NCBI GenBank assembly: GCA_015064635.1
Contig: SVRV01000006.1
Location: 31,494-95,493, forward strand
Direction: 5' to 3'
Length of the DNA: 64,000 nt
Source of the DNA: Oscillospiraceae bacterium
GTDB lineage: Bacteria > Bacillota > Clostridia > Oscillospirales > SIG627
Numbering within the stretch: the stretch's first letter is position 1; the number at the start of each line of letters is the position of its first letter. A model generated the notes under the pieces. The model was not told the DNA's origin, made no database searches, and was given only the letters and a program-made list of their open reading frames with translations. Position numbers and translations under genes: made by a program. Shown one piece after another: positions 5,850 through 58,929 of this stretch.

Positions 5850-5985
5850 GTGCGGAACGAAAGAACCGTTCACCGAGGGGACTCTGGAGAATCTCATTTA
5901 TTTGAGTGCCGAAGGTGCAAGGTGAAATACCGAATCTCTCAGGCAAAAGGATAGAGTAAAAGCATAAACACTTTTTTGTGTTATG
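5850..5985 (+). ncRNA. Glycine riboswitch (apparently one canonical aptamer, ~5874-5957, plus flanking hairpins)
   Basis: GAGGGGACTCTGGAGAATCTC...GTGCCGAAGGTGCAAGG...AATCTCTCAGGCAAAAGGATAGAG matches the glycine aptamer consensus; sits upstream of an AGCS transporter. Confidence 0.88.
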
Positions 5986-22690: not shown

Positions 22691-22765
22691 GCTGGTGTGG
22701 CTCAACGGTAGAGCAGCTGATTTGTAATCAGCAGGTTGGGGGTTCGATTCCCTTCACCAGCTCCA
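22691..22765 (+). tRNA. tRNA-Thr(TGT), with encoded CCA
   Basis: Cloverleaf: GCTGGTG acceptor, anticodon loop TTTGTAA, GGTTCGATTCC T-arm, CACCAGC-T-CCA. Confidence 0.96.
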
Positions 22766-22771
22766 TAAGAT

Positions 22772-22856
22772 GGGAGCGTTCCCGAGTGGCCAAAGGGGGC
22801 AGACTGTAAATCTGTTGTCAGTGACTTCGGTGGTCCGAATCCACCCGCTCCCACCA
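22772..22856 (+). tRNA. tRNA-Tyr(GTA), class II, with encoded CCA
   Basis: GGGAGCG acceptor, anticodon loop CTGTAAA, long variable arm, CGCTCCC-A-CCA. Confidence 0.96.
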
Positions 22857-22858
22857 GA

Positions 22859-22896
22859 AAAAAGCATCAATCTTGATACAAGATTGATGCTTTTTT
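22859..22896 (+). terminator. Terminator of the tRNA operon
   Basis: AAAAAGCATCAATCTTGATACAAGATTGATGCTTTTTT. Confidence 0.9.
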
Positions 22897-22897
22897 C

Positions 22898-23066
22898 AAC
22901 TAAATCCGTCTTTGCAGACGGAATAAATCAATCTTCGATTGATGATATCTGCTACGCAGATGAAATCGCCTGCGGCGAATTAAAGACGGATTTAATTTCA
23001 TCGAAGCCGCAAGGCTTTGATTTCATCCAAACTTGTTTGGATTTCATCGTGCTGTGCACGATTTCA
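22898..23066 (+). repeat. Multi-hairpin structured repeat, copy 1 (downstream of tRNA-Tyr)
   Basis: AACTAAATCCGTCTTT ... AAAGACGGATTTAATTTCATC..., chain of ATC-stem-loop-GAT hairpins; second copy (inverted) at 58648-58812. Confidence 0.85.
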
Positions 23067-23117
23067 TTATTGAAATATTTTAGGCTTGTGGTATAATGTC
23101 ATAAAGAGGTGTTTTAA

Positions 23118-23253
23118 ATGGCAGAAAATAAGTTAGCAGAATTATCTATGGATTTTGCAGTTTGATGTTTCTTCACTTATACATAATTGTGGTGTAATCC
23201 GCAAAATGCTCATCTCCTCCATCAATACCGCCAAGCAAAATATGGAAAATTAA
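23118..23253 (+). pseudogene. Remnant of four-helix-bundle protein (S23/IVP-like)
   Basis: MAENKLAELSMDFAV N-terminus then, in another frame, ...IHNCGVIRKMLISSINTAKQNMEN* C-terminus; middle deleted. Confidence 0.6.
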
Positions 23254-44373: not shown

Positions 44374-44640
44374 AAACCCGTCTCAAAGATTTTTCTTTGA
44401 GACGGGTGAAATTAACTCATCCGCGGTACCACTCAAATTGCAGGAGACCTGCCACTCTTGGAATCAATCAATTCCTATGCATTTACGCAGCAATCACGGG
44501 AACACTTACTTGAGAACTTTCAGCATTCCGGCTCGGAAGTGATAGGATACTTTGTCGATTAGTTACTGACTCGCACCAAACGTCAGCTCTCTGGAAACAA
44601 CCTTCAAAACCGTCTTCGTCACAGCCTTTAAATATTTCGG
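44374..44640 (-). ncRNA. T-box leader (probable Ile specifier ATC at 44541-44543)
   Basis: Minus-strand TTTGAGTGGTACCGCGG, terminator ACCCGTCTCAAAGAAAAATCTTTGAGACGGGTTTT. Confidence 0.88.
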
Positions 44641-58540: not shown

Positions 58541-58647
58541 ATCATTGTATATTATATCACATTATCTGTCCCATAAAAAGGACAGCAAATTGACACGCCC
58601 CCTGTCATGCATCCAACTTTTTATCAAGGTTAAATTTATCAATTTAG

Positions 58648-58812
58648 TGAAATCGTGCAAAGCACGATGAAATCCAAACAAGTTTGGATGAAATCCTCGC
58701 TCGGCTCGGATGAAATTAAATCCGTCTTTATATCCTTGCGAAGCAAGATTTCATCACGAAGTGATTTCATCCTCCGAATGAGGATTTATCCCGTCGCAAG
58801 ACGGATTTAGTT
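58648..58812 (-). repeat. Multi-hairpin structured repeat, copy 2 (downstream of tRNA-Val on minus strand)
   Basis: Reverse complement shares AACTAAATCCGTCTT... AAAGACGGATTTAATTTCATC ... ATCCAAACTTGTTTGGATTTCATCGTGCTTTGCACGATTTCA with 22898-23066. Confidence 0.85.
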
Positions 58813-58813
58813 A

Positions 58814-58853
58814 AAAAAGACCTTAACTTTTTATCAAAGTTAAGGTCTTTTTC
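58814..58853 (-). terminator. Terminator of tRNA-Val
   Basis: Minus strand AAAAAGACCTTAACTTTGATAAAAAGTTAAGGTCTTTTTT. Confidence 0.9.
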
Positions 58854-58929
58854 TGGTGGGGACTACAGGGCTCGAACCTGTGACCCTCTGCTTGTAAGGC
58901 AGATGCTCTCCCAGCTGAGCTAAACCCCC
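58854..58929 (-). tRNA. tRNA-Val(TAC), with encoded CCA
   Basis: Minus strand GGGGGTTTAGCTCAGCTGGGAGAGCATCTGCCTTACAAGCAGAGGGTCACAGGTTCGAGCCCTGTAGTCCCCACCA; loop CTTACAA. Confidence 0.96.

Follow-up and report, generated by a model that had tools for sequence, protein, structure and literature searches.

Two hairpin arrays behind tRNA genes

What is the multi-hairpin repeat that lies just behind the tRNA-Val terminator, and why does a second copy occupy the same place at the tRNA-Thr/Tyr locus of the same window (the whole 64,000-nucleotide stretch of Oscillospiraceae DNA analyzed here)? The copy that an initial annotation had placed behind tRNA-Val was confirmed from the sequence by 15-mer counts and folds, and the same order is found at tRNA-Thr/Tyr (Table 1). 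The array 15-mer occurs five times in the window, allowing up to two mismatches, against 0.24 expected, and the Val and Tyr copies are 80% identical across about 174 nt. In shuffle-controlled RNA folds both copies are far more stable than their controls (z = -8.84 and -8.76). Elsewhere the window contains a T-box leader (44395-44631, minus strand) and a glycine riboswitch aptamer (5874-5964, plus strand).

Table 1. Features of the Tyr copy (copy 1) and the Val copy in the window.
Feature	Position	Strand	Remarks and basis
tRNA-Thr (tgt)	22691..22765	+	5' of copy 1; ARAGORN
tRNA-Tyr (gta)	22772..22856	+	CCA end; host site of copy 1; ARAGORN
Terminator palindrome, copy 1	22857..22896	+	Sequence, RNA fold
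Hairpin array, copy 1	22897..23068	+	Left half 22897-22971 is Rfam Gut-1; RNA fold
Probable IVP promoter, TTGAAA ... TATAAT	23071..23099	+	Sequence; intact IVP genes have the same layout 5'
IVP (S23 four-helix-bundle) pseudogene	23118..23253	+	Compared with the intact IVP of the tRNA-Ser copy
Degenerate terminator repeat TTAACCTTGATAAAAAGTT	58615..58633	-	Sequence; cf. downstream terminator repeat at the tRNA-Ser copy
Val array, right half: three hairpins, reverse-complement linker GATTTCATC	58646..58713	-	Sequence and Gut-1 match; array ends at about 58646
Val array, left half: stem P1 and enclosed hairpins with GATGAAATC-type linkers	58714..58812	-	
Terminator-type palindrome GAAAAAGACCTTAACTTTGATAAAAAGTTAAGGTCTTTTTT, 41 nt	58813..58853	-	Sequence, RNA fold; related terminators travel with arrays
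tRNA-Val (tac)	58854..58929	-	Encoded CCA at end; ARAGORN and Rfam tRNA

At the Val locus, the terminator palindrome is the first hairpin of the unit and begins right after the CCA. P1 is a long-range stem in which AACTAAATCCGTCTT (58812-58798) pairs with the inverted AAGACGGATTTAATT (58728-58714, both on the minus strand), and P1 and hairpin 1 compete for one 5' arm. The element extends past the hairpins at both loci, into a broken gene of the S23/IVP family (hereafter IVP) at Tyr and a degenerate second terminator at Val. The Tyr pseudogene retains an N-terminus, MAENKLAELSMDFAV followed by a stop, and a C-terminus, ...IHNCGVIRKMLISSINTAKQNMEN followed by a stop, with the middle absent. A further copy in the host genome, behind tRNA-Ser (L068), has an intact IVP and a downstream terminator repeat (L068 1148-1200), and is enclosed by a repeat that comprises the terminator and 16 bp of array. 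Judged by its sequence, the repeat at 58633-58615 is probably a right-end remnant left after loss of the IVP gene. The Tyr copy thus keeps a broken IVP, and the Val copy is an IVP-less relic of the cassette.

Relation to the Gut-1 RNA

Gut-1 (RF01706) was published by Weinberg 2010 as a candidate ncRNA from human-gut sequence only (PMC2864571), and in the literature, searched without most subscription papers and preprints, we found it solely in that role. With membership defined as a covariance-model score of at least the gathering threshold of 50 bits, the left half of the Tyr copy belongs to the family (60.3 bits), while the Val copy, at 46.4 bits on the tRNA strand, is a relative only; the right half of the Val copy scores 42.4 bits in the opposite orientation. 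Because the model matches both strands, the Val copy consists of two mirror-image halves. The 2.47-Mb draft host genome contains 36 matches, and 26 of 38 relatives also have them, many at contig ends. Gut-1 represents one sub-type within a family of dispersed arrays; it usually makes up one half of an inverted array, often with a tRNA terminator and an IVP gene attached. We dropped an early reading of Gut-1 as a plain transposon terminal repeat, since its copies lie inside inverted arrays.

Two further loci may be recorded. The 6.4-kb contig G014:C165 carries inverted Gut-1 copies at both ends, which had suggested the terminal-repeat reading, but those ends may be mere assembly breaks, a second reason for dropping it. 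On G000:C5, two Gut-1-type arrays (L040 and L041) lie between genes resembling purine-biosynthesis genes, and several copies like them, about 95% identical, occur genome-wide.

The initial annotation had set a majority of copies unlinked to tRNA genes against its proposal of tRNA targeting. For the wider Gut-1 family this distribution is what we find, most copies in the host genome sitting behind protein genes, but it does not extend to close relatives of the Val copy: three of its four DNA-similarity matches lie behind tRNAs (Val, Ser and Tyr), and the fourth is near a contig start.

IVP genes and their linkage to tRNAs

IVP genes were assigned to the four-helix-bundle family PF05635 / TIGR02436 at curated cut-offs. 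PF05635 matches exceed the cut-off, TIGR02436 is matched by 12 of 12 aligned members, and the structural relatives are PDB 2rld (E 2.7e-44) and 2gsc. Each of the eight IVP genes of the host genome is directly preceded by an array, or at the least by a single hairpin, and the family is present in 58 of the 117 genomes of the order.

Two locus sets were examined for neighboring tRNAs. Among the IVP loci of those 117 genomes with enough upstream sequence (set 1), a same-strand tRNA, drawn from 14 isotypes, ends 135-456 nt upstream in 40 of 89; none lies upstream on the opposite strand, and a tRNA lies downstream in 3 of 92. Set 2 was drawn from named GTDB genomes, for the most part animal-gut MAGs of Clostridia and Oscillospiraceae. 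Its loci were picked for their similarity to aligned IVPs that are mainly tRNA-linked, and two of them also belong to set 1; a same-strand tRNA lies upstream in 40 of 71, none lies on the opposite strand, and no downstream tRNA occurs in any of 74. In the non-redundant union, 80 of 158 loci have a same-strand tRNA within 500 nt upstream and none has one on the opposite strand, against a background expectation of about 0.5%. tmRNA genes also serve as sites. About half of the IVP loci are not behind tRNAs, the notable alternative being the 3' ends of protein genes. Reading individual loci of the host genome, and considering only tRNA-unit ends followed by sufficient sequence, we counted an array in 9 of about 21 cases. 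Together with the union of IVP-linked arrays, this count strongly supports the targeting of tRNA 3' regions that the initial annotation had proposed.

In the wider phylum, none of 29 IVP loci (30 examined) has an upstream tRNA, and most lack arrays, a few having strongly repeated words. Since this is so, the tRNA-array arrangement is a trait of the gut Clostridia group and not general for IVP. One other member of the phylum carries four tandem IVP genes at about 1.3-1.6-kb spacing (G407:C150:4002-8790). IVP is rare in viral and plasmid collections, where only a few distant matches were found and no vehicle is visible; a phage, plasmid or viral-contig vehicle was rejected for this reason. Two phage records from human faeces, MT835590.1 and MT835815.1, encode IVP homologues 68% and 52% identical to the host tRNA-Ser IVP.

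A second, different element also occurs at tRNA 3' ends of the host genome (L340, L331, L320, L324, L325, L329, L330 and L335), behind Leu, Pro, Arg, His, Gln and Met tRNAs. It consists of a T-arm reverse complement, a core of about 150 nt (GGGACAAAGCGTGAAGAAAACAGTCC...) and then a copy of its own tRNA's 3' end, which carries CCA and terminator; it has no Rfam family match. A hairpin array follows it at Arg C37, Gln C32 and a C3 locus, the first two being among the nine array-bearing tRNA-unit ends counted above, and at L065 it lies between a tRNA-like end and the array.

Anatomy of the array

The loci share a common order of tRNA-CCA, terminator, hairpin array, promoter, IVP and a variable cargo gene. 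The array body opens with hairpin 1 and a further two to four hairpins, linked by a constant word, and leads to a center complementary to the 5' arm of hairpin 1; past the center come two to four hairpins with the reverse-complement word, followed by the promoter and the start of IVP. The hairpins are perfect in pairing and variable in sequence, whereas the linker word is constant and flips its orientation at the center. Words differ by class (GATGAAATC, GTGAAGT, AATGAAG, TGATATA, GTATATCATCA, AGCTAAA, TTCACT and others). Hairpin density upstream of IVP is 8.4 and 8.9 per 400 nt in the two locus sets, against 4.0-4.3 in shuffled sequence, and 5.4-6.2 downstream of IVP. Over 77 loci, the long-range complement averages 11.5 bp, and only 6.2 bp when the sequences are shuffled.

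Among 16 arrays of the GATGAAATC class, the variable 5' arm finds a partner in the center in 13 and a local one in 12, whereas mismatched array pairs match in 12 of 208. Because the arm pairs with both, hairpin 1 and P1 compete. At a tRNA-Pro locus (L058 1080-1690, G000:C1), three tandem copies of about 202 bp, each comprising the array and the terminator's 3' arm, precede one intact IVP.

Co-inheritance and movement between tRNAs

On a tree of tRNA-linked IVP loci, the linker word requires 17 changes, close to the minimum of 15 set by its 16 states, against a shuffled mean of 44.9 and a shuffled minimum of 40. The tRNA isotype requires 59 changes, against 61.6 when shuffled. The linkage of word and IVP was also examined in a pairwise version. 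Since the word follows the IVP tree and the isotype does not, array and IVP are inherited together and the tRNA is not inherited with them.

The initial annotation had called the stems of the two terminators in the window unrelated, and indeed the stem sequences differ, but the GAAAAA...TTTTTT flanks and the TTGATA loop core are common to both (CTTTGATAAAAAG / CTTGATACAAG), and the terminator of the host tRNA-Ser copy, AACTTTGATACAAAGTT, is intermediate between them. One terminator recurs, unchanged over about 36 nt, in four genomes at Leu, tmRNA, Leu and Thr-region sites, and identical terminators are also shared by Pro and Trp and by Gln and Leu. Such sharing between different tRNAs makes the terminator a part of the unit. 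The argument from differing terminators against block duplication therefore fails in detail, since the terminator moves along with the array.

Comparisons of sister sites, made between species and on draft MAGs, revealed variable occupancy. Within the genus, the tRNA-Val site is empty in two genomes (G001, G002) and holds an array with a different word in G004. In G004 the tRNA-Tyr site has a class-1 array; its counterpart in G003 holds a different one, accompanied by a passenger gene but lacking IVP. An intergenic site 3' of a gene ending in GKE and a stop is empty in four sister genomes and holds two different arrays in two others. Neither a target-site duplication nor a strain-level insertion polymorphism was seen in these between-species comparisons.

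These observations bear on a non-mobile alternative, in which the array is a 3' element of tRNA operons: a Gut-1 read-through RNA whose hairpin 1/P1 switch tunes termination, tRNA processing or IVP expression. In its favor are the invariable orientation along the tRNA (none opposite), very stable folds, a long-range stem in nearly all loci, the mutual exclusion of hairpin 1 and P1 in most GATGAAATC-class arrays, and an ATTCAC-word class whose center is complementary to the terminator's own 5' arm. However, the linker word tracks IVP and not the tRNA, the array is absent at the same tRNA in sister genomes, many copies lie behind protein genes, and an RNA switch has no need of mirror-image halves. 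We consider this alternative improbable, although functional selection at tRNA ends, without active mobility, could be the source of some patterns.

At L265/L270 (G002) and at L055 and L056 (host genome), the first hairpin is complementary to the last codons of the host gene. In the G002 example, GTAAAGAATAGAAC-TTTT-GTTCTATTCTTTAC, the match is perfect over 14 bp and the intergenic site is empty in sister genomes. Such complementarity suggests that the first hairpin may be formed on the target as template. L056 (G000:C24) also contains a duplicate of roughly 100 bp from the 3' end of the gene preceding the L055 (G000:C19) array; the duplicated segment, the array and a truncated IVP lie together behind another gene's stop codon.

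The gene fragment duplicated in the C24 copy would fit a retroelement, with an Avd-like IVP and array RNA copied in trans by a reverse transcriptase. Weak PF05635 matches beside reverse transcriptases in two genomes (G083:C1:528864-530447 and G069:C25:79239-80694), which are probably DGR Avd genes, are consistent with this idea. The host genome, however, has no match to the reverse transcriptase family PF00078 despite its eight IVP genes and over 30 Gut-1 matches, and across the 117 genomes reverse transcriptases are independent of IVP (17/58 versus 16/59, P = 0.84). Reverse transcription, which we hold to be very unlikely, was rejected on these two grounds. Still more implausible is the mobilization of REP/BIME-like elements by a RAYT (Y1) transposase, the kind of mobilizer the initial annotation had in mind. 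BIMEs, as generally known, do look similar, with inverted pairs and a constant word flanking the hairpins, but the co-inherited gene here is IVP, and Y1_Tnp (PF01797) has no match in the host genome, so this candidate too was rejected.

Passenger genes

An ORF of at least 40 codons overlaps the IVP stop by ATGA in 25 of 84 tRNA-linked loci versus 5 of 89 other loci, and the 3' end of IVP, in the codons for TAKEN, supplies AAGGAGAA as ribosome-binding site. The passengers include a histidine phosphatase, an AAA-type kinase, MazG-like proteins, a pyrophosphatase, a deaminase, HAD, GNAT and TetR proteins, and unknown families. One pair of loci clearly points, in its sequence, to an exchange of passengers between otherwise dissimilar IVP/array types: the host tRNA-Pro locus (L063) and a tRNA-Gly locus of a goat MAG (L173) have different words and IVPs only 60% identical, and their DNA identity, about 60% at first, climbs to nearly 100% just short of the IVP stop and remains there through the cargo gene.

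That this exchange occurs at a short conserved stretch would also suit a tyrosine recombinase integrating a larger element at tRNA 3' ends, with the array att-like and the passengers swapped by homologous recombination. tRNA 3' ends are the classic attB, and the tRNA-Ser copy is flanked by terminator and 16 bp array repeats. Nevertheless, no recombinase gene was noticed in the units examined, which stop after one or two small genes; the arrays themselves lack an attached tRNA 3' duplication; and one IVP clade uses many tRNA isotypes. We regard such integration as unlikely, slightly more so than the RNA switch.

The variety of passengers, one of them with an immunity-protein match (WapI), could also indicate a type III toxin-antitoxin-like or defense module, in which a repeat RNA precedes a small protein gene near tRNAs; the succession of repeat array and small gene, as in ToxIN, and the tRNA-adjacent position agree with it. 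IVP-less arrays are common, however, and the passengers are mostly housekeeping-like enzymes, which leaves this explanation little probability. The defense assignment itself was rejected, as no PADLOC anti-phage model matched any of 12 IVPs.

A proposed mobile cassette

On the whole, we judge it probable that the repeat makes up the 5' part of a mobile gene cassette, one of a family that is related to 23S rRNA IVS/S23 elements and targets tRNA 3' ends. The anatomy, the association, the co-inheritance of word and IVP, the absence of inheritance by isotype, the empty or differently occupied sites and one cargo exchange were observed directly. An intact unit would comprise its own terminator at the CCA, the array, a promoter, the S23/IVP gene and often a passenger gene. 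Such units would settle directly behind a tRNA or tmRNA gene and would invariably point the way the tRNA is transcribed, with array and IVP traveling together from tRNA to tRNA and passengers being swapped at the IVP 3' end.

IVP is the only shared gene, and an IVP oligomer may bind its cognate linker/hairpin array as read-through RNA or single-stranded DNA, and this recognition may drive the maintenance or movement of the unit. Co-orientation with tRNA transcription, together with the fold, suggests that the array acts as read-through RNA, and the mirror-image halves suggest that recognition also works at the DNA level. A role of IVP in maintenance or movement was proposed long ago for IVS elements (PMC4990558).

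A stronger reading, which we advance only tentatively and consider doubtful, is that of a new cassette system in which IVP and its cognate, word-matched array propagate themselves, home to tRNA 3' ends, carry a terminator and promoter, and capture and exchange passengers without a known transposase, integrase or reverse transcriptase, the first hairpin perhaps being copied from the target. S23/IVP proteins, known since 1993, have to our knowledge been annotated only as "four helix bundle protein." No published account of IVP genes accompanied by tRNA-linked hairpin arrays came to light in the literature, most subscription papers and preprints lying outside the search. Since each IVP clade has a linker word of its own, binding can be tested directly and cheaply. 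The results also reassign an Rfam "gut-only ncRNA" to a dispersed element family, explain a widespread repeat of gut Clostridia, many copies of which lie at contig breaks, and mark tRNA 3' ends as a place where cassettes sit although no recombinase is evident.

Comparison with known systems

The DGR accessory protein Avd is an RNA-binding member of the same four-helix-bundle superfamily as IVP, but reverse transcriptases are neither linked to the present loci nor co-occurring with them. REP/BIME elements with RAYT share the dispersed palindromes, constant flanking word and inverted arrangement; here, in contrast, the host genome has no RAYT, the arrays are much longer, and they are linked to IVP and tRNA 3' ends. 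Integron cassettes are similar in their single-gene passengers of mixed enzymatic function, fixed expression platform and structured sites; they differ in that the present passengers abut IVP by an ATGA overlap and the site is the tRNA 3' end, and attC/IntI were not noticed in the loci read.

The closest comparison is with the 23S rRNA IVS elements that carry an S23/IVP ORF in Leptospira and Coxiella (PMC4990558). The 23S elements are characterized by excision through RNase III without ligation. The likeness includes a PF05635 four-helix-bundle ORF inside or beside a stable-RNA transcription unit, long complementary stems and a scattered distribution suggesting horizontal transfer. As a family, the present elements likewise encode S23/IVP, broken in the Tyr copy and absent from the Val copy; their sites are not 23S rRNA helices but the 3' ends of tRNA/tmRNA or protein genes. 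Unlike the 23S elements, the tRNA-linked units add a multi-hairpin array with linker words, a terminator and promoter of their own, and passengers.
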